A DNA stretch of 57,430 bases from Bacteriovoracaceae bacterium (lineage in GTDB: Bacteria > Bdellovibrionota > Bacteriovoracia > Bacteriovoracales > Bacteriovoracaceae): positions 1 through 57,430 of the forward strand of contig JAGSHI010000005.1 of assembly GCA_023954635.1 (NCBI GenBank), given 5' to 3'. Shown piece by piece: positions 19,776 to 33,143 of this stretch. The position numbers were made by a program, and so were the translations under genes. The notes beneath the pieces are model-generated. The model was given only the letters and a program-made list of their open reading frames with translations, was not told where the DNA came from and ran no database searches. The number at the start of each line of letters is the position of its first letter. The stretch's first letter is position 1.

Positions 19776-21155
19776 TTAATTTTCACCGAGGACTTCTGGG
19801 TTTACTGCTTGCTCAGCTTTCCGAGCAATATTTACCATCTGGTCATATAATTCTTCGAGACTCATTACCTCTGCTGAGTCTTGCATCTGTCTTAACATTT
19901 CCATCAGCTCATCATAAATTATTAATGCCTTATCTACTTTTGCATTGGAACCACGTACATAGGCACCAACATTAATAAGATCTTCATTTTCTTTGTAGGA
20001 AGCCATCAAGTCTCTCAGGTGAGAGGCGACAATTATATGTTCTTTCGCAACAACTTTATTCATAACCCTAGAAAGAGATTGAAGTACATCAATTGCAGGA
20101 AACTGATTTCGACTTGCTAGCTCTCTTGAAAGAATAATGTGTCCATCAGCGATGGCCCTAATTGCATCAGCAATAGGCTCATCCATGTCACCACCTTCAA
20201 CTAGTACGGTATATATACCAGTAATCGATCCTGCACCTTTTTTAGTACCAGCTCTTTCAAGTAACTTTGGAAGTTTTGCAAAGACCGAAGGAGTATAGCC
20301 TTTTTGTCCTGGAGGTTCTCCGGCCCCAAGACTAATTTCTCTATTTGCCATAGCAAAACGAGTTACAGAATCCATCATAAGTAAGACATCTTTGTTTTTG
20401 TCTCTAAAAAACTCAGCAACAGTTGTCGCAACATATGCTGCCTTAGTCCTAATGAGTGGTGATTGATCAGATGTTGCTACAATTACAATTGATCTTCTAA
20501 GACCCTCTTCACCAAGATCACTTTCTATAAACTCTAGAACTTCTCGTCCCCGTTCCCCGATTAATGCAATTACATTTATGTCGGCATTTGTATTTTTAGC
20601 TATCATCCCAAGTGTTACTGACTTACCAACACCAGAACCAGCCATAATCGCTAATCTTTGCCCTTTTCCAGCAGTCATAAAGCAATCTATTGCATGAACT
20701 CCTGTATGAAGACTTTCTCTAATCGGTGGCCTCTCTAGGGGGTTTATCGGCGTTCCAAAAATACTGTGGACTTCAGCTTCATTTGACTCAATAGGACCTT
20801 TCCCATCAATTGGGTTTCCTTGAAAATCAATAACTCTTCCAATAAGAGCATCTGAGGCCTTAAAAGTAGTTGTTAATTCTTTTAGATAAACTCTTGTTTC
20901 AGAATTTATTCCAGGAATCTCATCATAGGGCATGGCCATACATTTATTTTTGTTAATAGCTACGACTTCACCTAAGCAAGAGTCACCAAATTCGGTCACA
21001 AATTCAACATTACTTCCGATAACGGCACGGCTAAGGTTCACTTCAAACATCATGCCTTGGCTAGAGTTAACTTTTCCAATCTTCTGATACGGAAGTGAAT
21101 ATTCATATGATTTTAATATAGGATTAAGATCAAGAGTCTTTTCGTTCATTTTCAA
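19776..21155 (-). CDS. fliI: FliI, flagellar type III export ATPase
   Basis: The protein is related to F1-ATPase beta. The Walker A AGSGVGKS lies near residue 172, Walker B in 'VLLMMDSVTRFA', and the family motifs 'GERGREVLEFIE' and 'GEPPGQKGYTPSVFAKLPKLLERAG' are all present. It uses ATP hydrolysis to prepare substrates for export and forms a hexamer with FliJ and FliH at the cytoplasmic face of the basal body. The start overlaps the fliH end by 26 nt; an ATG two codons in is an alternative. Confidence 0.97.
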   Translation of the reverse strand: MKMNEKTLDLNPILKSYEYSLPYQKIGKVNSSQGMMFEVNLSRAVIGSNVEFVTEFGDSCLGEVVAINKNKCMAMPYDEIPGINSETRVYLKELTTTFKASDALIGRVIDFQGNPIDGKGPIESNEAEVHSIFGTPINPLERPPIRESLHTGVHAIDCFMTAGKGQRLAIMAGSGVGKSVTLGMIAKNTNADINVIALIGERGREVLEFIESDLGEEGLRRSIVIVATSDQSPLIRTKAAYVATTVAEFFRDKNKDVLLMMDSVTRFAMANREISLGAGEPPGQKGYTPSVFAKLPKLLERAGTKKGAGSITGIYTVLVEGGDMDEPIADAIRAIADGHIILSRELASRNQFPAIDVLQSLSRVMNKVVAKEHIIVASHLRDLMASYKENEDLINVGAYVRGSNAKVDKALIIYDELMEMLRQMQDSAEVMSLEELYDQMVNIARKAEQAVNPEVLGEN

Positions 21156-21945
21156 GACCTACAGATTCAAATAGTTTATCAAGGCTATGCATTTGTTCTT
21201 CAAGAGTACCATTGATAATTCCATTATCACTCTCAATAATTAAACCTTGATCTTTGATATCATAATCAACTTCAACTCTTACATTTTTAAGAGCTCCAAT
21301 TTTTTCCTGAACTACTTCAAGGATGTCAGTCATGCCTTCAAAGCTATTTTGATCAACATGAAGTAGAAGGTTTGACTTTGTTTGAATCTCGACAATAAGT
21401 TTTTCAAGCAGTCTCGGTATATACTCACCGTCTCCATCCAACTCTCTAAGGATTACCCACTTCGTTAAATTTCGAATTAGTTTATAGAGGTCTTGCTTTT
21501 GATTATTTATGATGTCTTCTTTCAATATCAATACTTCATTGATCATATCAACAAGTGCATTGAGTTTTTCTTCTGTCTGGGCCCTCGTTTGATTAAAAAC
21601 TTCTTGCTTACCGGCTTCAATACCTTCATCGAAACCTTGCTGGAATGCTTCCTCTCTAATTATATCAAGGCGTCTTTCAACTTCATCTCGAATTTTTCTT
21701 TCACGCTCATCTCGTTCCTGCTCAAGTAGCCCTCTATGCTCTTTTACAATCGGAGATATATTGAAATTTTTCTTCTCTGCAGATAACCTTTCAAACTTAG
21801 CCTTCTTTCCATCTCGTTTCGCAAGTCGAGGGACAAGTTCACCGAGATCTTTAAAGTCATAGTTCTCTACACTATCTGAATCATTCGCAACTGATGAAAA
21901 GTTTTTAAATTCATAATTCTCAATACTGTTGTCATTTGTTGCCAT
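21130..21945 (-). CDS. fliH: FliH, flagellar export ATPase regulator
   Basis: The 271-residue protein has an N-terminal disordered part with an internal duplication ('NYEFKNFSSVANDSDSVENYDFKDLGE'-type repeat of N-Y-[ED]-F-K), a Glu/Arg-rich coiled coil (about 75-130), and the FliH/YscL-like C-domain. FliH dimers bind FliI and hold it at the C ring. Its position between fliG and fliI is standard. The N-terminal repeat resembles short peptide motifs that could bind FliN, but that is inference. Confidence 0.9.
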   Translation of the reverse strand: MATNDNSIENYEFKNFSSVANDSDSVENYDFKDLGELVPRLAKRDGKKAKFERLSAEKKNFNISPIVKEHRGLLEQERDERERKIRDEVERRLDIIREEAFQQGFDEGIEAGKQEVFNQTRAQTEEKLNALVDMINEVLILKEDIINNQKQDLYKLIRNLTKWVILRELDGDGEYIPRLLEKLIVEIQTKSNLLLHVDQNSFEGMTDILEVVQEKIGALKNVRVEVDYDIKDQGLIIESDNGIINGTLEEQMHSLDKLFESVGLENERKDS

Positions 21946-21960
21946 TCAACAATTCTCCAA

Positions 21961-23001
21961 TTAAACGAGTTGATCACCTTCACCACCTCTGGCGATGAAT
22001 GCTTTACCTTGTTGTTCAAGTTCTTTCGCTTTTTGAACAATTTCGGTCTGAGATTTTTCAACATCAGATAGTTTCGTTGGCCCAAGGGCATCCAAATCTT
22101 CCTGAATAAGTGTTGCCGCTCTATTTGACATATTTTTAAAGATCTTAGCTTTAATATCTTCTGGTGCAGTTTTAAGAGCAATAACAAGTTTCTGCTGATC
22201 AACTTCCTTAAGTAAGTTCTGAATACCTTTATCATCAACATGAACAAGATCTTCGAAAACAAACATAAGTTTTCTAATTTCTTCTGCAAGTTCTGGATCT
22301 TTCTCTTCAACACGAGACATAATATTTTTCTCGCTATTTTTATCCATAAGGTTAAGCATGTCAGCAATTGGCTCCACCCCACCAAGTTGATTAGTATCAA
22401 TTGACCCAAGGGTAGATAATTCCGTTTTAAGTACATCATCAAGCTGAGCAATAAGTTCAGGTGAAACATAATCAAGGTTAGCAACCCTAAGTACAACTTC
22501 CGCCTGAAGTCCTTCTGGAAGTCTTTTAAGAACATCCACTTTCTTTTCAGGAGCAAGATGCGCAACAATAAGAGCAATCGTTTGAGGATGCTCGTTAATT
22601 AAGAAGTTTGCGAGTGTTCTGGTATCAACTAGCTCTAGAGACTCTAGAGTATTGTTTGATCCAACTTCAACAATCTGACCAAGGAGTTGTTTAGCTCTCT
22701 CTTCTCCAAGAGCTCCAACAATAAAGTCACGACCACGGTTATCACTAAAGAGAAGATCATTTTCTTCATTCAGTGTTGCATAAAATTCTTCTAACACTTT
22801 TTTGATTAACCAAATGGGTGCTTTTCTCACCGCAGCCATTGTATTAATCATTCTTTTGACATCATTGTCTCTTAAGTGCCCAAATATTAACTGTGTCGTA
22901 TTTACACCCAGAGCGGAAAGCAGAATCGCTGCTTTCTCCTGCCCAGAGAGCAGGGAATATTCCGTGTCCGGATCTAAACTGTTTTCACTTGGCATTGCCA
23001 C
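21961..23001 (-). CDS. fliG: FliG, flagellar motor switch protein
   Basis: Three FliG domains are visible: the N-domain ('SGQEKAAILLSALGVNTTQLIFGHL'-like opening), the middle domain with 'NEHPQTIALIVAHLAPEKKVDVLKRLP', and the C-terminal charged helix region around 'VHVDDKGIQNLLKEVDQQKLVIALK' that meets the stator. FliG joins the MS ring to the rotor and determines torque direction. A short Gly/Gln-rich tail follows. The start is a GTG with AGGA five bases upstream; an internal ATG two codons later is possible. Confidence 0.97.
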   Translation of the reverse strand: MAMPSENSLDPDTEYSLLSGQEKAAILLSALGVNTTQLIFGHLRDNDVKRMINTMAAVRKAPIWLIKKVLEEFYATLNEENDLLFSDNRGRDFIVGALGEERAKQLLGQIVEVGSNNTLESLELVDTRTLANFLINEHPQTIALIVAHLAPEKKVDVLKRLPEGLQAEVVLRVANLDYVSPELIAQLDDVLKTELSTLGSIDTNQLGGVEPIADMLNLMDKNSEKNIMSRVEEKDPELAEEIRKLMFVFEDLVHVDDKGIQNLLKEVDQQKLVIALKTAPEDIKAKIFKNMSNRAATLIQEDLDALGPTKLSDVEKSQTEIVQKAKELEQQGKAFIARGGEGDQLV

Positions 23002-23027
23002 AGCTTTCCTCGCTTGTTATCGCCTAA

Positions 23028-24746
23028 TTAGGCAATTTGTTTATCAGATTCTGTACTATGAATCATTTCATGGATAATCTGAGCAGCCTTACCTGGATTC
23101 GATTCAACCAATGAAATAATTCTCTCTCTCAGCATGTTTCCTTCAATCTTCTCTGGATTCAGCTTATCCTCAATTTGAGGTAAGGCATCTTCTAGGCCAG
23201 GTAACTTCTGGTTAGATTGAATTTTCTCTAGCTCTTCTAATGTTTTCGGAAGAAAGTCTTCTACCGATTCAACTGTATTGTCAGTAACCCACTGAATAAA
23301 TGGTCTTACAACAAGGAAGAAGAATAAAGAGATTACTAATCCAACAGCCAAGTACTTAACTACATTCTTCCAAAGCTCTCTCTTCTCTTTTGCTAACATG
23401 AAGGCTTCAACAGCAGCCATGTCTTCTTGAGCAAATTCCATATTTTTAATAACTAACTGATCACCGCGTTTCTCAGAAATTCCAAGGGTTGAAGTTACAA
23501 TGGCCTTGAAGTTCGCTAGATCAGCTTCTGACCATGCTTCATACCTCATTACTTGTTTTCCATTGTCTCCAAGTAGTGGCTCACCATTTTCAGTAACGGC
23601 CGGAACTCTCTTACCATCAATCATAACGGCAGCAGATATTTTCTGTATTCCAGCTACTGGTGTTTTCGACTTCTTAATTTTTGTTGGAACATTATAGTTT
23701 TTAGTAGAAAGTTCCTTATCAACATTATTCCTTGTTTCAGGAATACCAGGTTGAGGAGTTTCGCCAGGAACATTACTTCTAGCCCCAGGTATCCCCTGTG
23801 GAGAAGGTCTACTTCCATTAAGTTTCTGTGAATTTTTCACTTCTGAAAGTACGGCACTATTCTCACTGTCATATTTCGTTTCAGTTTGAATACTCTCTGT
23901 GAAATCCATATTTACAGTAACTTTAGCAATAACCTTTCCTTCACCAACAACCTTTGTAAGAATCTCCTCAATTTGATTTTCATACTTTCTGTTAATTTTG
24001 GTTTCAAGTCCGATTCTATTTGCTGTAGCTGCAGTTAATGCATCTCCAATATTTTCAGATAACTTCTTCCCTTTATGATCTAGAATAACCACATTCTCAG
24101 GTCTCATTCCTTCAACTGAGCTTGAGATAAGTTGAGCTATCCCTTTAACTTCTGCTTCAGCAAGAGAAACTCCTCTATCCAATTCGAGAACAACTGATGC
24201 TCCTGGTGGTTTCTTTTGACTTACAAATGGTGATGTTTCAGGGATAGAAAGGTGAACTCTCGCTCTCTTAACTCCATTTATATATCGAATCGTTTTAATA
24301 AGCTCGCCTTCAAGCGCTCTTTGTTTATTTACCTTTTGAACAAAACTTGTCGTCCCAAAAGACTGCTTATCAAAAACTTCATAACCAACTGTTCCAGAGA
24401 AAGCAACACCCATAGTTGCAAGTTCTAATCTCCATCTATTGACCATGTCTTCTGGAATTTTGATAGATTTCCCATCATTATCAAGTTGATAAGAAATTTT
24501 CTTCTCTTCTAGAATAACTGCAATTTTTTTGGAGTCTTCTCTGTTTAAATTATTATATAAAACTTCATAGCGAGTTTTTGAAGCCCATATGACAATCGAA
24601 ACCATAACGGCAACGATCACACCTGATAGCCCTAAAAGACTAATCCTTTTAGAAGTATCAAGAGTTGCATAAAACTCCATGAAATTCCGATAAATTTTCT
24701 CTAAAAAATCCTGCACAGAATCCTCCTGATTCAGCGCGATTGCCAC
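23028..24746 (-). CDS. fliF: FliF, flagellar MS-ring protein
   Basis: The 572-residue protein has a membrane helix at about 37-57, the periplasmic ring-building motifs (YEVLYNNLNREDSKKI and 'YEVFDKQSFGTTSFVQKVN'), a Pro/Gly-rich loop about 315-345, a second membrane helix at about 453-473, and a C-terminal tail with 'LRERIISLVESNPGKAAQII' that binds FliG. FliF forms the MS ring, the assembly platform of the basal body. The proposed start is a GTG; its ribosome site is not convincing, but the reading frame shows no better one. Confidence 0.97.
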   Translation of the reverse strand: MAIALNQEDSVQDFLEKIYRNFMEFYATLDTSKRISLLGLSGVIVAVMVSIVIWASKTRYEVLYNNLNREDSKKIAVILEEKKISYQLDNDGKSIKIPEDMVNRWRLELATMGVAFSGTVGYEVFDKQSFGTTSFVQKVNKQRALEGELIKTIRYINGVKRARVHLSIPETSPFVSQKKPPGASVVLELDRGVSLAEAEVKGIAQLISSSVEGMRPENVVILDHKGKKLSENIGDALTAATANRIGLETKINRKYENQIEEILTKVVGEGKVIAKVTVNMDFTESIQTETKYDSENSAVLSEVKNSQKLNGSRPSPQGIPGARSNVPGETPQPGIPETRNNVDKELSTKNYNVPTKIKKSKTPVAGIQKISAAVMIDGKRVPAVTENGEPLLGDNGKQVMRYEAWSEADLANFKAIVTSTLGISEKRGDQLVIKNMEFAQEDMAAVEAFMLAKEKRELWKNVVKYLAVGLVISLFFFLVVRPFIQWVTDNTVESVEDFLPKTLEELEKIQSNQKLPGLEDALPQIEDKLNPEKIEGNMLRERIISLVESNPGKAAQIIHEMIHSTESDKQIA

Positions 24747-24774
24747 ATCCTATGGCAACCTCTACTTATTTACA

Positions 24775-25146
24775 TTAAATCTGCATTCTCATTACTTCTT
24801 TATAAGCATCAATTACTTTAGACCGAATTTGATTCATGGTCTTAAATGCAATCTCTGCTTTTTCAACTGCTAACATGGTCTCATGTAAATTCTTTGTCTT
24901 ACCTGTCACCAAATTCTGAATTGCTTTATCAGCATCTTGTTGCATCCCATTTACTTCTGTAATTGAGCTTGCCAACAGTTCAGAAAAAGATTTTGTATTA
25001 CTTGGTTGATCTAACGTTAAAGATCCACCTACTGAAGAACTTCCACCTAACTCGGAGAAACTCTCCATCTCTGCACTTTTACTCCAATCCTTAGCATTGT
25101 AATTATTAAGAATTGACTGTAAATTTCCTACATTTTGAATTGCCAT
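24775..25146 (-). CDS. fliE: FliE, flagellar basal-body MS ring-rod junction protein
   Basis: The C-terminal half has the FliE signature: 'FSELLASSITEVNGMQQDADKAI' followed by 'LHETMLAVEKAEIAFKTMNQIRSKVIDAYKEVMRMQ'-type helices. FliE connects the MS ring to the rod and is exported early. The 123-residue length and position between flgC and fliF are standard. The N-terminal ~40 residues are variable and Ser/Gly-rich. Confidence 0.95.
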   Translation of the reverse strand: MAIQNVGNLQSILNNYNAKDWSKSAEMESFSELGGSSSVGGSLTLDQPSNTKSFSELLASSITEVNGMQQDADKAIQNLVTGKTKNLHETMLAVEKAEIAFKTMNQIRSKVIDAYKEVMRMQI

Positions 25147-25156
25147 TTTCTACCCC

Positions 25157-25594
25157 TTATCTTCCGATTTCCAAAGCTTTCATGGCCATACCTTTAGTTG
25201 TATTCAATGCACTAATATTGGCTTCATATGAACGAGAGGCTGAAATCATATTTGCCATCTCTTCCATAACGTTGATATTTGGATAAGCAACATATCCCTT
25301 TTCATTAGCATCTGGATGATTTGGTTCGTACTTCAAGATAGGAGGTCTGTCTGTCGAAATCACCTCAGTGGCATGAACAGTTTTTGCTTTCTCGTCCAAT
25401 TCACCTTCCAATATATCTGCAAAAGATTCTCTAGCAGGTTCGGCGCCGAAAACGACTTCCTTCTTCCTGTAAGGTCCACCCTCTGCAGTTCTTGTTGTTT
25501 GTGCATTCGCAATATTTGAAGAAATTGCTGCCATTCTCTTTCTATTGGCCGCAAGTCCCGATGCTGAAATTTTCAAACTGGTTAGTAAATCCAT
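25157..25594 (-). CDS. flgC: FlgC, flagellar proximal rod protein
   Basis: The protein starts 'LLTSLKISASGLAANRKRMAAISSNIANA', the axial-protein N-helix, and ends 'NVMEEMANMISASRSYEANISALNTTKGMAMKALEI', the partner C-helix. The interior has 'EGGPYRKKEVVF' and 'DPNHPDANEKGYVAYPNI'-like rod motifs. FlgC builds the proximal rod with FlgB, FlgF and FliE. Length of 145 residues is normal. It lies 8 nt after flgB. Confidence 0.96.
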   Translation of the reverse strand: MDLLTSLKISASGLAANRKRMAAISSNIANAQTTRTAEGGPYRKKEVVFGAEPARESFADILEGELDEKAKTVHATEVISTDRPPILKYEPNHPDANEKGYVAYPNINVMEEMANMISASRSYEANISALNTTKGMAMKALEIGR

Positions 25595-25602
25595 AATTCA
25601 CC

Positions 25603-26010
25603 TTACCTTTCAGAACTGATTGCATATTTCATCAGTCCAAGTTTTTTGTTTAAGAGTTGAACAGACGCATCGTAGAGAATTTTATTTCTTGCCATTAAGG
25701 CCATCTCTTTTTCTCGATCGACAGTGTTCCCGTCCTCACTAATGATTCCGTTAGGATCATCGTAAATTTCAGGTTGTAGATTATTAAATCCACCTCCGCC
25801 GACATTAAAATGTCGTCCATCATCTGTATTCAGCTTCTGACTCTCATCAACATCTAAGGCCCTAGCAAGGGCTTCTTCAAAATCAACTCGTTTTGATTTA
25901 TAACCTGGAGTCTCAGCGTTAGCTATGTTGGAGGTAATAAGCTCTTGGCGCATTTGTCTGAAATTCAAACTCGTTGCCAATGCCTGTAATGTTTTATCTT
26001 CAATCTTCAT
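25603..26010 (-). CDS. flgB: FlgB, flagellar proximal rod protein
   Basis: This 135-residue rod protein has the FlgB pattern: 'LATSLNFRQMRQELITSNIANAETPGYKSKRVDFEEAL' and a C-terminal 'VDREKEMALMARNKILYDASVQLLNKKLGLMKYAI'. The pattern of Asn-Ile-Ala-Asn-Ala-Glu-Thr-Pro-Gly is diagnostic for rod and hook proteins. It starts the structural part of the operon (flgB-flgC-fliE-fliF order, the most conserved flagellar order). Confidence 0.96.
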   Translation of the reverse strand: MKIEDKTLQALATSLNFRQMRQELITSNIANAETPGYKSKRVDFEEALARALDVDESQKLNTDDGRHFNVGGGGFNNLQPEIYDDPNGIISEDGNTVDREKEMALMARNKILYDASVQLLNKKLGLMKYAISSER

Positions 26011-26038
26011 GATTGCCTCCGCTTACACTTATGGTTAG

Positions 26039-26971
26039 TTACCTTAAATTAACAAAGTAAACTGACCCGTCTCCTCTATACTCATTAATTTTATTTCTAA
26101 GTGTTCTAATCGATACACCAAGAATTTTTGCAGCCTGTGTTCTATTTTCTGAAGTATGAACAAGGGCCTTCTTAATAAGTAGCTTCTCAGCTTCTTTAAG
26201 AGACATAAGTCTAATACCTTCATTGTCTTCATCACTGATCATGCTTACAGCTCTCTTCTCACCAATCTCTAGATCAGCTTCACTTAAAAAACCTGTTTCT
26301 GAATTTGTCATGCTTGACTCAATAACTGTTTTTAACTCATGAACATTGTGAGTCCAGTAGTGTGAAACAATTTTGTCTAAGGCTGATTGCTCGATTTGTG
26401 CATTTTCAGCTGATGAATACTCAGAAGCAAAAAACTGAGCTAGCATTACTAGATCTATTTCTCTTTCTCTAAGTGGTGTCAGCGTAATAGCGTTGCTAGC
26501 AACAAGAGTATATAAACCTCGATAGAATCTTCCAGACCCTACAAGTTTTGATAAGTTCTTAGTTGTTGTAGCTACAATTCTTACGTCAATATCATAGTCT
26601 GGTAATTCTAAGAGAATTTTGTGAAGTTTCTTTTGAAACTCATCTTCGATACCTTCGATATTTGCAAAAACTACTGTTCCTGTATTTGCAGCTTCGAAAG
26701 CTCCTTTATTGAATCTTCCCGTTTCTTCATCTCTCCAACCAAGAATTTCATTTTCAACTTGCTTGGCATCGTTTGAGCAGTCAACAACCATAAATGGTTT
26801 TTCAGCTCTTGATGAATTTTCGTGAATAAATCTTGATAGACTTCTTTTACCTACTCCTGCTTCTCCTACAACTAAAACTGGTGCTTTAGTTACAGAAACA
26901 TTCCTAGCTACAGAAATAGCTTTTTGAATTTTGGGATCCTTTCCAAAAAGTTCAACTCTTACAGCATCCAT
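26039..26971 (-). CDS. Degenerate NtrC-like AAA+/Fis-HTH regulator without GAFTGA loop
   Basis: The domain order is AAA+ core then a Fis-type helix-turn-helix (about residues 255-300, 'NRTQAAKILGVSIRTLRNKI'). Walker A is kept (GEAGVGKRS). However, the sigma54-contact GAFTGA loop is missing ('FNKGAFEAANTG' runs straight on). Walker B reads VVFANIEGI with no acidic pair, and the arginine finger region is altered (FYRGLYTLV). It therefore probably cannot remodel sigma54 polymerase and may act as a DNA-binding partner or modulator in flagellar control. I chose the ATG at 26971, since AGGAGG overlaps the alternative ATG five codons upstream. It lies 28 nt upstream of flgB. Confidence 0.8.
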   Translation of the reverse strand: MDAVRVELFGKDPKIQKAISVARNVSVTKAPVLVVGEAGVGKRSLSRFIHENSSRAEKPFMVVDCSNDAKQVENEILGWRDEETGRFNKGAFEAANTGTVVFANIEGIEDEFQKKLHKILLELPDYDIDVRIVATTTKNLSKLVGSGRFYRGLYTLVASNAITLTPLREREIDLVMLAQFFASEYSSAENAQIEQSALDKIVSHYWTHNVHELKTVIESSMTNSETGFLSEADLEIGEKRAVSMISDEDNEGIRLMSLKEAEKLLIKKALVHTSENRTQAAKILGVSIRTLRNKINEYRGDGSVYFVNLR

Positions 26972-27012
26972 TTGACCTCCTGTCATTTGTTTCGCCCCAT
27001 CCTAGGGCTACA

Positions 27013-29778
27013 CTATATTGCTTGATTCTTAATTTTCAGTAATGATAATTCGGATTTCACCATCTCCTTGATGTATTCCGATATCGATTCATCCTTTAAA
27101 ATATTGTTAAAGACCTTCATGGCCTCTTTTTCCTTCTTAGTATCTGCAAGGGAAAGGCCAAGTAAGTATTGAAGCCTTCCTTTGTAACTACTGTTTTTAT
27201 AGGTCTTCAAGAATCTTTTAATTCTCGCAACCATAAGATATTCCGTCCCTTTTTCATTCTTTCCGGCCAATATCTCTAAACTTAAATAATTAATCTTTTC
27301 TTTTACCTTTAGCATTAGTTCATTTTTGACACCAAAATTCCTAGTATCCTTCAAAATGGCACTAGAGACTTTTTGGAACTTTTTGTAATTTCCAGACTGA
27401 TAAATAGAATCTGTGTAAGCATCGAGCATTGAAGCGAGGTCTGTTGGATCAAAGATCCTTTCACCTTCTTGTGAGCTTAAATAGTTCTCAAAAGAGTCTT
27501 CTGCTGACCTATAATTCTTTCTATTGTATTGAATCATACCTTTGTAGAAATCAACTTTGTCGTATCTTGGTGCCATTTTCTTTATTTGATTTACATTACT
27601 TAAGGCCAAGTCCCAGTTCTTGAGTTTCATGTTCTTAGAGAGCTTTAACTCCTCTAAAATGACCGAAGAACTACTCATCCCATGCCTTTTTACCCATACT
27701 GGGAATGTTCTTGCTGGTGACTTCTTCATTTCACTAAAAGACTTGTAGATATCATCAAACCCTGAGAATACACCTAATTTGATATAACTCTTACCTACAA
27801 TAAAGTTAAGGAATGGGTCCATAGCGACTTTATCTACATATTTTTCTTTGTAAACTTCCCATGCCTTAATAACTTTTCCATACTCAGAAGATTTATAGTT
27901 ATTGATCATGATCCCATAAATCGCTTCAGCTCCGTCACCTTCATAAACTCTTTTTTCAGAAGGTTTTAAGGAGTTCAAAGGAAGAACACTTAGATAACTA
28001 AGAGCTTCTTTATATTTTCCATCTGTTAAGAATGTTCTAAGTCTGACAAGCCAAAGTAACTTTTTGAGGTCTCTTGATAGGATAGGCTTTTTCTTTGTAT
28101 CTTTGATTTTTAGAAGTGCTCTCATTTCCATATCTTTAGAGCTTCTTTTGTTTTTTCTTACGGTTCTAAGAGCTGTGAACCTTATTCTTGCCTCAAAACT
28201 TGAGTCAAATTTTCGAGACCTATTTATTGCTCTTTTATAAAGTTCAAGAGTTTGATCTACATTTTTTTCAAGTATTTCATAACAAAGAGCAAGTCGTGTT
28301 CTCGCCGGTCCTGATTCAGTCATGAAGTTATAGTTTGTTATGAAGTCATCGTAAAATCGAAGAGCTTTTTGGTACTCAGCATTTCTAAAGTATGCCTCAG
28401 CTACGTTGTATAGAATGGCAGAATGAATTGGTTTCACCATTCCTTTTTTATTCTTTTTCCAAGCCTTAATGACTTCGCCAGGTTTATTCATTGAAAGTAA
28501 TGTGTAAATCTCGTAAGCAATCATTAACTGAGGGGGAACAAGCTTCATTAAAGTTTTATCTTGAACCAACTCTCTCAACTTTTCTATCTGTTGTAGGTTT
28601 GTTAGTGAGTGAAGAATTAACTCTGCAGCATATCCACTTTCTTCATAATCAAAATTTTCTTTTGATGAGATGTAAAATTTCTTAGCAAGATCTAATAGCT
28701 TGATATAGTCCTTGTTTTGAATTTTAGATGTCATTAAGTACTTATAAATACCTTTCTTCAATTCATAATTGTCAGTTCTTTCAGCTATATTTGAGAGCAT
28801 CGCCATCGCCGTTTTAACTGGCTCAGTATTACCTTTCTCAATATTTTCTCTAAGAATAGCGTTTGCTTTTAAGTATTCATTGATATCGACTAGCTCTTCT
28901 TCCCCGTACTTCTGCTTAAAGAGTTCAATCGACTTGTACATTAATCCATATTTCTTTTTTCTATAAAGGTTAATACTTAATTGAACGTGGGCTTCTTTTT
29001 CATTTTTTGAATATTTTCTATTTTTAATTGGAAAGAAAAATTCAGGTGTTTTTCTACTTAAATTAACAATTTCTTTTAATGATGGTGCTAGAGGCTTGTA
29101 GTCCCATATAAAACTAGCTCCGTACCTAAAGTCTCTATATTTTTTATTTCTCTTTCTTTGTGATTTCTTCTTCTTAGTGTTTTTCGCTAGCTTGTTACTT
29201 GTAGGTCTTTTTAAAACATTCTTTTGAGTTGATGATTTCCCTTTAGGGGTTTTAGCAACAGGGTTTGCCCTTTTACTCTTAACTTGCTTTTTAGACTTTT
29301 TAGCTTTCTTAGCTATTTTTTTATCTTTATTAAGGATTGTGTCTGCATCTGTCCAAAAGTCGAGAACATAGTACTTTTCCCTATCTTTATAGAAAGTAAA
29401 TAATTCAACATCTGGATTACTTAATTTAATTTTAAGAATTGAAACAGCATTACCTGCTGCTTTTGGCATAACATTTATTTGTTTAATGTAATCTGGGTTT
29501 TGCTTAAGTGCTATCAGTTCATCGGAAACTTTTTTAAACATTTCAGGGTTTAAAGATTTAATGATGACTTCGTCACCTCTCTTATTAACAATGATTAGAT
29601 CTTTTTGAATAGCGATCTTGTACCTAAGATGTGTCTTAGCATTCTCTTGGGTAACAACTGCAGCAAATACTTCCAGCGAAAGCAAAAGCCCCAATACAAT
29701 TGTCAAAAATTTGATACCACTTTTCTTCATACGAATAGAACTTCCTGTTCCATAAAACTGTTTTGAAGCCGACTGCAT
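27013..29778 (-). CDS. Large exported TPR-repeat protein at the head of the flagellar operon
   Basis: This ~920-residue protein has a signal peptide (the hydrophobic stretch after 'MKKSGIKF', ending EVFAA). A small beta-rich N-domain follows (about 40-150), then a highly basic linker (about 155-220) packed with Lys and Arg. Many tetratricopeptide-like helical pairs make up the rest ('AILYNVAEAYFRNAEYQKALRFYDDFI', 'DFYKGMIQYNRKNYRSAEDSFENYL', 'LQYLLGLSLADTKKEKEAMKVFNNIL'). TPR arrays form protein-binding scaffolds, here probably in the periplasm. Its place in the flagellar operon suggests a motor or envelope scaffold, but no known flagellar protein matches. Start is uncertain: the ATG at 29730 gives a more typical signal peptide, the one at 29778 has AGGAAG nearby. 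Confidence 0.75.
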   Translation of the reverse strand: MQSASKQFYGTGSSIRMKKSGIKFLTIVLGLLLSLEVFAAVVTQENAKTHLRYKIAIQKDLIIVNKRGDEVIIKSLNPEMFKKVSDELIALKQNPDYIKQINVMPKAAGNAVSILKIKLSNPDVELFTFYKDREKYYVLDFWTDADTILNKDKKIAKKAKKSKKQVKSKRANPVAKTPKGKSSTQKNVLKRPTSNKLAKNTKKKKSQRKRNKKYRDFRYGASFIWDYKPLAPSLKEIVNLSRKTPEFFFPIKNRKYSKNEKEAHVQLSINLYRKKKYGLMYKSIELFKQKYGEEELVDINEYLKANAILRENIEKGNTEPVKTAMAMLSNIAERTDNYELKKGIYKYLMTSKIQNKDYIKLLDLAKKFYISSKENFDYEESGYAAELILHSLTNLQQIEKLRELVQDKTLMKLVPPQLMIAYEIYTLLSMNKPGEVIKAWKKNKKGMVKPIHSAILYNVAEAYFRNAEYQKALRFYDDFITNYNFMTESGPARTRLALCYEILEKNVDQTLELYKRAINRSRKFDSSFEARIRFTALRTVRKNKRSSKDMEMRALLKIKDTKKKPILSRDLKKLLWLVRLRTFLTDGKYKEALSYLSVLPLNSLKPSEKRVYEGDGAEAIYGIMINNYKSSEYGKVIKAWEVYKEKYVDKVAMDPFLNFIVGKSYIKLGVFSGFDDIYKSFSEMKKSPARTFPVWVKRHGMSSSSVILEELKLSKNMKLKNWDLALSNVNQIKKMAPRYDKVDFYKGMIQYNRKNYRSAEDSFENYLSSQEGERIFDPTDLASMLDAYTDSIYQSGNYKKFQKVSSAILKDTRNFGVKNELMLKVKEKINYLSLEILAGKNEKGTEYLMVARIKRFLKTYKNSSYKGRLQYLLGLSLADTKKEKEAMKVFNNILKDESISEYIKEMVKSELSLLKIKNQAI

Positions 29779-30007
29779 CACTCTTCCTGAATAACCAGCC
29801 GCATCTTAATTCTACATTTTTTTGAGCAATATGGAAGGAAAATTTTTCTTCCTGGCAGAAATTGCCGATCAAAAAAATGACATCTAAAAAATTTTCCCTA
29901 TTTACAAGTCTTTGCAGATGAGTGACTAAAATAGACCATTTTTTTTGGTGTCAAAATGGCCACGAGTTTTGAATTTGTTTTGAATACTTGAGAAAAACTA
30001 TAGAGGA

Positions 30008-31552
30008 CTATTGGGTTAGCTGATTCGCCATTCCCTTTTTCTTCATCTTCTCTATAAGAGTAGTTCTGTTCATCTGTAGAAGTTTTGATGCTTGATTTTT
30101 GTTACCATCAGTCTTATCTAGTGCCTGATGAATTAAGCTATCTTCTATATCGGAGAGAGCTTGCTTTAAATCCATCCCTTCATCTGGAAGAGTAATAAGT
30201 GTTTCAAACCCAGAGTGAATAGATTTATGTTGAAGAAATTTAACTGGTAAATCACTGGCAGAAATAACATTCCCACCTTTTAAAATTACGAGTCTCTCAA
30301 TTAAGTTTTCAAGTTCTCGTACATTTCCTGGCCAATCATATGACATTAATAGCCCTAAAGACTCATCATCAAACTCTAGGTTATTTCGCCCATCTGCACT
30401 TACAAATCGGTTTAGAAAGTATGAAATCAATAGGGGTATATCTTCTTTACGGCTGGCCAGAGAAGGAACCTTGATAGGAATTACATTCAACCTATAATAA
30501 AGATCCTCTCTAAAATTTCCGTCGGTAACTTCTTGTTCTAGGTTTCTGTGGGTCGCAGTAATAATTCTAACATCAACAGGTGTTGTCTGAGTTGACCCCA
30601 CTCTTTCAATTACTTTATTTTGAAGGACTCTTAAGAGTTTTACTTGTAACAGAAGAGGCATATCACCAATTTCATCGAGAAAGATTGAACCTTTATCAGC
30701 TAATTCAAATCGACCTTTTCTAGAATTGATAGCTCCAGTAAAAGCACCTTTCTCATGTCCAAACAATTCACTTTCTAATAATTCACCTGGAATAGCTCCA
30801 CAGTTTACAGAGACCATTCCATTAGAGTTTCTACTACTTAATTTATGTATTGCATTTGAAACTAGCTCTTTACCAGTTCCTGATGGCCCATTGATAAGAA
30901 TAGTAGAGTCTGAAGTAGCAACTTTCTTGATTCTCTCAAAAACTTCCTTCATTAAGCTTGAACGACCTATCATTCCACAGAAGATATCTTCTTCTCTAGG
31001 GTCTTCAATTTTAAATTTTCTTCTTCGAGGAGCTGAAGGTTTATTATCCCTGAGGCTTGCGACAGGTAAAGTTTCCTTTCCAAGGTCCCAATTAAGCTTT
31101 TGCTTATAAGCTTTGCCTACTAATTCAGAAAGAACATCTAACTCAAATGGCTTTGTTAGGTAGTGAAATACACCCTTCTTCGTCGCTTGGATAGCCGTCT
31201 CAATAGAGGCAAAACCAGTCATCACAATAGAAACAAACTCTAGTTTCTTATCTTTAAGGACATCTATAAGTAAAAGTCCATCTGAGCCACCCTGATCAGA
31301 AAAGCTGATGTCTGTTAGCAAGCAAAATGGTTCTACTTTTTCTACACCCATTCTCTCTTGAAAATGATTAATACAGTCTTCCGGAGAAAGAAAGTATCTA
31401 GTCTCAAGGCCAAGTTTTTTTTCTATATATTTTTGGAGTGGTTTTCCGAATGTTTGATCATCTTCTACTAGGTACAGTATTGGTTTTTTCTGTCTACTGC
31501 CATCTTCATTTTGATCTTCAAAAGAAGTGTGTAAGAAGTGAAAGTCATCCAT
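30008..31552 (-). CDS. NtrC-family sigma54-dependent response regulator (FlrC/FleR-like)
   Basis: Three domains are clear. A receiver (about 20-140) has the acidic 'LVEDD' and the phospho-acceptor Asp in 'LLTDISFSD'. A sigma54 AAA+ domain (about 200-435) has Walker A 'GPSGTGKE', an intact GAFTGA, and Walker B 'SIFLDEIGDMP'. A C-terminal Fis-type helix-turn-helix has 'NKNQASKLLQMNRTTLIEKMKKKG'. All activator residues are present. Position just upstream of the flagellar operon suggests it is the FlrC/FleR-type class switch, but no cognate histidine kinase is in the window. I chose the ATG at 31552; the frame extends to a TTG five codons earlier. Confidence 0.9.
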   Translation of the reverse strand: MDDFHFLHTSFEDQNEDGSRQKKPILYLVEDDQTFGKPLQKYIEKKLGLETRYFLSPEDCINHFQERMGVEKVEPFCLLTDISFSDQGGSDGLLLIDVLKDKKLEFVSIVMTGFASIETAIQATKKGVFHYLTKPFELDVLSELVGKAYKQKLNWDLGKETLPVASLRDNKPSAPRRRKFKIEDPREEDIFCGMIGRSSLMKEVFERIKKVATSDSTILINGPSGTGKELVSNAIHKLSSRNSNGMVSVNCGAIPGELLESELFGHEKGAFTGAINSRKGRFELADKGSIFLDEIGDMPLLLQVKLLRVLQNKVIERVGSTQTTPVDVRIITATHRNLEQEVTDGNFREDLYYRLNVIPIKVPSLASRKEDIPLLISYFLNRFVSADGRNNLEFDDESLGLLMSYDWPGNVRELENLIERLVILKGGNVISASDLPVKFLQHKSIHSGFETLITLPDEGMDLKQALSDIEDSLIHQALDKTDGNKNQASKLLQMNRTTLIEKMKKKGMANQLTQ

Positions 31553-31683
31553 AAAGTGTGTTCCCAAGTATGATCCAGGGCCTGAAATTGATTCCAGACT
31601 CTTTTACTTAGGAAAATCCTAGCTCAAAGCAATAATAGGTGTCAATTTATAGACACATTGACAGATTTTGCCGAGCACAAATT

Positions 31684-31908
31684 TTAGTGATTGATAATAG
31701 ATTCAAAGGCTTGCACTGCTCGAGTAGGTCCACCGGCCCAGACCCAAAAGGCCAACAGCGCAATGCAAAAACCACTAAGTCCAAACAAAATTGCAGAAAT
31801 AGCCTTTCTGTCTTTGGTCCAAAAGATGTAGCCAGTTGGAACAAGAATGAAAATCATTGGGACGCCCCAAAAAGGAATGTATTTAAATATAAAATAAACT
31901 GCATCCAT
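31684..31908 (-). CDS. Small two-helix membrane protein
   Basis: A 74-residue product with two hydrophobic segments (about 4-30 and 38-58) joined by the short basic loop 'WTKDRKAI'. No domain is recognised. The ribosome site is weak. It lies just behind the metK terminator on the same strand, so it would need its own promoter. The clean topology argues for a real gene, but coding status is not certain. Confidence 0.45.
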   Translation of the reverse strand: MDAVYFIFKYIPFWGVPMIFILVPTGYIFWTKDRKAISAILFGLSGFCIALLAFWVWAGGPTRAVQAFESIINH

Positions 31909-31930
31909 ACAATCATTCTAGCAAAGAATA

Positions 31931-31956
31931 AAAAAAAGGCCTCCCAAAAGGAGGCC
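31931..31956 (-). terminator. Rho-independent terminator of metK
   Basis: GGCCTCC (31938-31944) and GGAGGCC (31950-31956) form a perfect 7-bp stem with a CAAAA loop. On the minus strand it is followed by eight or more T residues. Confidence 0.9.
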
Positions 31957-31982
31957 ATAAGTCATTTTAATTTTGTAATTTC

Positions 31983-33143
31983 TTAGAAGTGAGACTTAAG
32001 CTCATCAAGCTTGTTGAGAACTTCCCATGGAAATTCAACGTCTGTTCTACCAAAGTGTCCATAAGCTGCTGACTTAGAATAGATTGGTCTTAAGAGATCA
32101 AGTCTATCGATAATAGATTTTGGAGTCATATCGAAAACTTCATTAACGGCCTTATTAATTTTAGTCACATCAACTTTCTCTGTACCAAAAGTATCAACAA
32201 GAAATGACATAGGCTTGGCAACACCAATTGCATAAGCAACTTGAACAAGAGCACGATCAGCTAATCCAGCTGCAACAATATGTTTTGCAACGTGCCTCGT
32301 AGCATAAGCAGCAGATCTATCAACTTTCGAAGGATCTTTTCCAGAGAAAGCTCCACCACCGTGGGCCCCATGTCCTCCGTATGTATCTACAATAATTTTT
32401 CTACCAGTTAGTCCACAGTCTCCCATAGGTCCACCGATAACAAATTTTCCAGTTGGGTTAATGTAGAATTTAGTATTGTTATCAATGAGCTCAGAAGGAA
32501 CTACTTTGTTAACAACTTCTTCACGAATCCCCTCTTGAACTTGCTTAAGAGTCATCCCATCAGCATGTTGAGAAGAAACAACAATATTCTCAATTCTTTT
32601 CACTTTTCCATCTACGTACTCAGCAGAAACCTGTGTTTTACCATCAGCTCTTAAATCATTAAGTGGTCCAGTTTTTCTAACTTCAGAAAGCTTAAGAGCT
32701 AGTCTGTGAGAAAGATCAATTGTTAAAGGCATATAAGTATCAGTCTCATTACATGCATAACCAAACATCAACCCTTGATCTCCAGCACCTTGCTCAGAAA
32801 ATGTACCAGCACCTTCATCAACACCTTGTGCGATATCAGGAGACTGCTTATCAAGAGCAACCATCACTGAACATGTGTGACAATCAAAACCTTTATCTGA
32901 ATGGTCATAACCAATTTCTTTAATTCTATTTCTAACGATTTCTTGAAAATCAACTTGTGCTTTAGTTGTGATTTCTCCGGCCAGTACAACGAGTCCAGTT
33001 GTAATCATCGTTTCACAAGCAACTCTAGACTTAGGATCTTGCTCAAGCATGGCATCAAGAATACTATCTGAAATTTGATCGGCCATCTTATCTGGGTGAC
33101 CTTCAGTAACTGATTCTGATGTAAATACGTAGTCTTTTAACAT
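31983..33143 (-). CDS. metK: S-adenosylmethionine synthetase
   Basis: The family signatures are complete: '[20 protein letters not shown]' at the N-terminus, '[12 protein letters not shown]', and the '[25 protein letters not shown]' phosphate-binding loop. Length (386 residues) is normal. The enzyme makes S-adenosylmethionine from ATP and methionine in the cytosol. GGAG lies 8 nt before the ATG. The 120-nt upstream region shows a possible TTGTAT/TAGGAT promoter but no SAM riboswitch I can recognise. Confidence 0.98.

Follow-up and report, generated by a model that had tools for sequence, protein, structure and literature searches.

A receiver-less NtrC-type protein without the sigma54-contact loop in the flagellar operon of Bacteriovoracales

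The need for GAFTGA and for ATP hydrolysis is usually taken to lock sigma54 activators into their mode of action. GAFTGA-less bEBPs have been described as sigma70 regulators, namely TyrR and DhaR (both E. coli), HupR and NtrC (both Rhodobacter capsulatus), VpsR (Vibrio cholerae) and NtrC (Caulobacter) (PMC3162934; PMC10274813). The Caulobacter NtrC still requires its ATPase residues, and Caulobacter FlbD has GAFTGA (PMC10274813). The protein considered here, termed X, is encoded in a 57,430-nucleotide window from a Bacteriovoracaceae bacterium and resembles TyrR, DhaR, HupR and VpsR in combining a bEBP AAA+ domain and a Fis helix-turn-helix (HTH) with loss of the L1 sigma54 loop. Regulators of that type carry N-terminal sensory domains, whereas X has none; X also differs from them in that it lies in a flagellar operon, occurs order-wide and is matched in sister families by GAFTGA-containing orthologues at this locus. 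Unlike Caulobacter NtrC, it has lost Walker B and both arginine fingers as well. Its linkage to the flagellar operon and an AAA+ fold matching the FlrC and FleQ structures recall FlbD, FlrC and FleQ, yet it possesses neither a receiver nor a FleQ-type N-terminal domain and cannot touch sigma54 through the known loop. Locus, gene order, length and recognition helix are shared with the receiver-less flgB-linked bEBPs of other families in the phylum (L065-L069, L074, L076-L078, L153-L191) which, in contrast to X, keep GAFTGA, Walker B and the arginine fingers; 40/44 of their operons have a sigma54 site. GAFTGA-less bEBPs are thus already known; what is new is an order-wide flagellar case, with parallel losses, a promoter switch and persistence after flagellar loss.

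The X gene, its motifs and its descent

The operon and its upstream neighbour are laid out as follows.

30008..31567 (-): full NtrC-type regulator (REC, GAFTGA AAA+ and HTH; Pfam, motif reading), upstream neighbour of X
27013..29730 (-): periplasmic TPR protein gene, first of the operon, ATG at 29730 preferred over GTG at 29781; the same gene precedes X phylum-wide
26039..26986 (-): X, receiver-less NtrC-type (bEBP) protein of 315 residues, ATG start (ORF, Pfam, 71 orthologues)
25603..26010 (-): flgB
25157..25594 (-): flgC
24775..25146 (-): fliE, named by gene order and length
23028..24746 (-): fliF
21961..23001 (-): fliG, first of fliG-H-I-J ... flgD-flgE, which run to 14549

The full NtrC-type regulator that the initial annotation had seen upstream of X is real. 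For X itself that annotation had given 26039-26971, of which position 26971 falls on the Met at residue 6; the ORF, with its ATG, ends at 26986. Pfam assigns X a Sigma54_activat AAA+ domain (PF00158, 85 bits against a cut-off of 20.2), AAA_lid_14 (40 bits) and HTH_8 (40 bits), and no receiver or other sensory domain, the AAA+ domain starting at residue 14. The top NCBIfam model is DhaR, yet with a score far under its cut-off, and the FlbD model is second. The AlphaFold model (pLDDT 83.5) agrees in presenting a bEBP AAA+ fold, with NtrC1, ZraR, NtrX, PspF, FlrC, FleQ and VpsR chains as the best structural matches.

Motif states were scored over 71 distinct Bacteriovoracales orthologues of X, with 14 proteins as the comparison for the arginine fingers; except where stated, the entries below rest on the 71 orthologues.

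26843..26866 (-): Walker A GEAGVGKR, residues 41-48, kept
26693..26743 (-): remodelled L1 segment LGWRDEETGRFNKGAFE, residues 82-98, replacing GAFTGA
26657..26677 (-): Walker B TVVFANI, residues 104-110, DE changed to AN
26489..26533 (-): former arginine-finger segment GRFYRGLYTLVASNA, residues 152-166
26333..26356 (-): former sensor II WTHNVHEL, residues 211-218, Arg lost
26075..26200 (-): Fis-type HTH region, residues 263-304, near-invariant; recognition helix common to the GAFTGA-containing orthologues

From this one sequence the initial annotation had read a surviving Walker A and Fis HTH, a deleted GAFTGA, a replaced Walker B acidic pair and an altered arginine-finger segment, and had proposed looking for the same deletion in sister species; that comparison bears out each reading, every motif change being common to the 71 orthologues. 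The GExGxGK of Walker A is 99-100% conserved (G41 99%; E42, G44, G46 and K47 100%). GAFTGA is missing in 71/71, its place being taken by a conserved LGxRDxETGRFxKG loop, net three residues shorter, in which L82, G83, R85, G95 and E98 are 100%, F92 99% and G90 96% conserved and for which a short beta-hairpin (residues 83-94) is predicted in the AlphaFold model where L1 had been. In Walker B, A/N stands for D/E, with N109 in 66/71. Both arginine fingers are lost: these positions hold R in 14/14 comparison proteins and mostly Y/S/H and Y/L/F in the orthologues of X, while R156, beside the lost finger, is invariant (71/71). Varied residues occupy the sensor II Arg position. By contrast with these losses the HTH is near-invariant, residues 280-304 being 100% identical but for K287 at 96%.

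Full-length orthologues of 50-90% identity were found in 55/59 genomes of the same family, with one more cut by a contig end and the remaining 3/59, without an orthologue, coming from genomes 67-86% complete; the named orthologues belong to Bacteriovoracaceae, Halobacteriovorax and their relatives. This identity, together with identical synteny, excludes chance. Pairwise dN/dS over the whole protein is 0.02-0.11 (unsaturated dS pairs only), the AAA+ part is also constrained, and the HTH is under stronger constraint than the rest. A sequencing error in X is excluded by 71 intact orthologues with the same changes, and together with the dN/dS values these leave a pseudogene or error, in favour of which nothing was found, with a practically negligible probability. 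Nor did the description of X as a degenerate copy hold: X is only about 30% identical to the neighbouring NtrC-type protein where the two align and has phylum-wide orthologues of its own, so it is not a recent duplicate of that gene. The source genome encodes a second NtrC-type protein (L005, G000:C86:110057-110557) in which the loop (HDFSRG) and Walker B (FINNI) are both damaged.

In the Bacteriovoracales the genes run metK, NtrC-type gene, TPR gene, X, flgB, flgC, fliE, fliF, fliG. In other families of the phylum the position between the TPR gene and flgB is occupied by a bEBP of 310-360 residues, likewise without a receiver, which has the recognition helix ISIRTLRNK of X but intact GAFTGA, Walker B and arginine fingers. 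X shares with the flagellar bEBP orthologue group (FlbD/FlrC-like, receiver-less) both a locus 5' of flgB and the recognition helix, and the same locus and helix in the GAFTGA-containing families make it the orthologue of an apparent working sigma54 activator. On sequence, then, X is a descendant of a receiver-less, flgB-linked sigma54 activator of the FlbD/FlrC-like kind. The TPR protein (27013-29730, minus strand) combines TPR repeats with an N-terminus resembling a signal peptide, and may correspond to the motor protein of PflA-like type whose presence in Bdellovibrio has been suspected (PMC12222027).

The operon promoter

Sites of the -24/-12 type were sought within 400 bp around the TPR ORF start as GG-N10-GC with at least 6/7 consensus positions. 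Such a site lies at the operon in 40/44 GAFTGA-containing loci, against a rate of 5.9% in regions drawn at random from these loci, and the same scored search found it in 0/51 Bacteriovoracales and 0/10 f12 loci (f1-f28 denote unnamed family-level groupings). A strict one-to-one tie between loss of GAFTGA and loss of the sigma54 site is rejected, as two lineages with damaged motifs still have the site at the operon (f6, 3/4; f23, 2/2). RpoN was found in the source genome and in all sampled genomes but two, these being 66-67% complete. The source genome has 35 strict sigma54 sites against two for reversed-pattern controls, and 0/35 lie on contigs C67, C70 and C213, which carry flgB-fliG, FlhA and other rod genes. 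Sigma54 thus appears active in the organism and gone from the operon of X. By eye, many of the genes behind the 35 sites are lipoprotein-like or secreted-like, which suggests that sigma54 mainly serves the cell envelope in the source organism.

In place of the sigma54 site the Bacteriovoracales operon presents a conserved architecture, in the window comprising:

29809..29881 (-): operon promoter region, without a sigma54 site (PWM from 33 Bacteriovoracales, held-out loci)
29867-29881 (-): promoter site 1, GTCATTTTTTTGATC
29854-29866 (-): promoter site 2, GGCAATTTCTGCC
29837-29850 (-): promoter site 3, AAGAAAAATTTTCC
29809-29814 (-): promoter -10 box TAGAAT
29738..29750 (-): GAAC-AGGAA-GTTC hairpin in the 5' leader of the TPR gene, CsrA-site-like

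The layout is fixed in 33 Bacteriovoracales promoters: a GTCA half-site, the palindrome GGAAAAAttTtCC, the palindrome GAGaAAAATTTTCC about 21 bp on, and then a TAnAAT box 21 bp past TTCCT. Read from the -10 box, the palindromes lie near predicted -61 and -41, and there is no -35 box. The matrix scores 50.7 at 29809-29881, the next match in the window clear of the site scoring 3.5; Bacteriovoracales loci held out of the matrix score 23-57 against 8.7 for the best outgroup locus, and among these held-out loci the promoter was not found at L060 and L063, both of which keep X. With at most one mismatch the pattern occurs in six genomes at the operon of X only, plus one further match in G004; with two mismatches, similar sites turn up elsewhere in the genomes at about the rate of the reversed-pattern control. 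In f12 a conserved TTGCGA-N18-CACAAT-like element was seen by eye at two loci.

Upstream of the sigma54 site, 22/41 GAFTGA-containing loci (3.1% expected) carry GTCA-N5-7-TTGNC, which resembles a UAS. The GGAAAA..TTTTCC boxes of the Bacteriovoracales differ from this element, the sole connection being the GTCA half-site, kept in 24/34 Bacteriovoracales and missing at aflagellate loci. X as the only ligand of the GGAAAA..TTTTCC boxes is not established, given that GAFTGA-containing operons carry GTCA-N5-7-TTGNC, and a literature search gave no tie between the Bacteriovoracales operators and the known FleQ box. Downstream of the promoter, the leader hairpin is shared by the majority of 34 related leaders; its loop contains AGGAA and its stem is closed by AAC/GTT pairs (GAAAC-AGGAA-GTTTC), the aflagellate genomes having the version AAAAC-AAGGAT-GTTTT. 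As is the case in CsrA/RsmA targets, the hairpin overlaps the ribosome-binding site, here that of the TPR gene, and a second AGGA element lies upstream of it at 29782-29790. Rfam gave no matches in 21000-33000.

Parallel losses and genomes without flagella

A tree of FlgB, FlgC, FliE, FliF and FliG (1295 columns) groups f12 with the GAFTGA-containing f8, f15 and f19, and f6 with the GAFTGA-containing f11, f21 and f27 (support 100 for each); f23 is separate from both groups, and the Bacteriovoracales are sister to f12+f8+f15+f19 (support 100). Unless the motif has been regained, this topology requires at least four separate events of loss or damage in the phylum, with two of the lineages concerned, Bacteriovoracales and f12, losing the sigma54 site of the operon as well. 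The kinds of damage differ: the loop is remodelled in f1, deleted in f12 and f6 with the fingers largely kept, and replaced by GAFVGA or ANGFGNG in f23. FliG-containing genomes without a close GAFTGA-containing orthologue of X also occur in families f7, f17 and f24 and in the f6 genome G228, and these are possible further cases of a degenerate X. All counts span related genomes and are hence non-independent; many of the genomes are MAGs.

Five Bacteriovoracales genomes (G030, G034, G097-G099) without FliG, FlhA and rod proteins keep X intact with the same HTH; completeness is 99% for G034, with no figures for G097-G099. Four of the five also keep the promoter. In aflagellate Bacteriovoracales flgB, flgC and fliE are gone and a FliF-like gene (YscJ_FliF, once sub-threshold), a remnant coding for an MS-ring-like protein, directly follows X, at the following loci:

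L061:3500-4993 (-): FliF-like gene after X
L113:5967-7259 (+): FliF-like gene after X
L063:5930-7525 (+): FliF-like gene after X

An intact X in five aflagellate genomes implies that its role is not solely flagellar, and the suggestion of the initial annotation that X may be a co-regulator of the flagellar genes, though plausible, is incomplete. In f11, a GAFTGA-containing family, eight genomes without a close orthologue of X are all without FliG; this sample was picked for missing X and shows joint loss, not that a GAFTGA-containing X never persists alone.

Proposed mechanism and its alternatives

With its sigma54 loop and catalytic residues gone, X should be incapable of the classical mechanism, and conservation of the P-loop, fold and HTH suggests ATP-stabilized assembly and DNA binding. 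Our preferred reading, held with moderate confidence, is that X binds ATP but does not hydrolyse it, and that it regulates the flagellar operon in which it lies, and perhaps other genes, by binding DNA independently of sigma54. In the Bacteriovoracales X has lost the loop that contacts sigma54, along with the means of hydrolysis, and has retained the AAA+ fold, the P-loop and the DNA-binding domain; ATP would be bound without hydrolysis and serve oligomerization; and X would control the sigma70-type promoter of its own operon (29809-29881) in the first place, besides further targets that outlast the flagellum. We favour direct action on sigma70 RNA polymerase because the promoter is sigma70-like, with operators at the positions of an ordinary activator; other GAFTGA-less bEBPs are reported to act in this way (PMC3162934; PMC10274813). 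Binding of nucleotide and of DNA, the palindrome bound, the form of polymerase and the sign of regulation are all inferred here from sequence features of this kind.

Among bEBPs, HrpR and HrpS are a hetero-oligomeric pair, and an unlikely alternative is that X is likewise a non-hydrolysing partner, sharing mixed rings with some intact bEBP, for instance its NtrC-type neighbour, which it would target or tune at sigma54 promoters. Purifying selection on the AAA+ domain with an invariant Walker A, the presence of an adjoining intact NtrC-type gene in much of the order, and the co-occurrence in f6 of a degenerate X and a sigma54 site on the operon would all fit such rings, for which FleQ/FleT of Rhodobacter sphaeroides, acting as a hetero-oligomer in flagellar control, provides a precedent (PMC7277832). 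The Bacteriovoracales have nevertheless lost the residues of the ring interface (both arginine fingers and sensor II), no sigma54 site lies on the operon (0/51) or on the other flagellar contigs examined, and in G030 the NtrC neighbour is not adjacent to X.

That X is a plain repressor or a Fis-like architectural protein, its AAA+ domain serving dimerization only and the palindromes being bound so as to shut the operon off, seems to us quite unlikely. The HTH is the most constrained part of X, and operators near -41 and -61 could suit repression as much as activation; however, the missing -35 box and the classical activator positions would be more typical of activation, and strict retention of Walker A points to a nucleotide role. 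Finally, genomes that have lost the rest of the flagellum still keep the TPR gene, X and the FliF-like gene together, as might be expected had X ceased to be a transcription factor and joined the TPR and FliF-like proteins in a structural role, but the HTH is its most conserved part and X gave no sign of a membrane or export signal, so that we regard such a role as highly improbable.

Beyond the sigma54-independent regulator proposed for the Bacteriovoracales, the balance of the evidence tips slightly towards a wider history in which one and the same flagellar activator lost its coupling to sigma54 on at least four separate occasions within the phylum, the operon passed from a sigma54 to a sigma70-type promoter in the Bacteriovoracales and f12, and the Bacteriovoracales X gained extra-flagellar duties, surviving flagellar loss. 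X is an uncharacterized, extremely conserved putative DNA-binding protein of a whole order that includes predatory bacteria, and it offers one gene at one locus, promoter included, that can be compared before and after losing the lock in several lineages, so that the evolutionary passage from sigma54 to sigma70 control can be tested directly. If true, this history would be a replicated natural record of an enhancer-dependent activator turning into an ordinary transcription factor.
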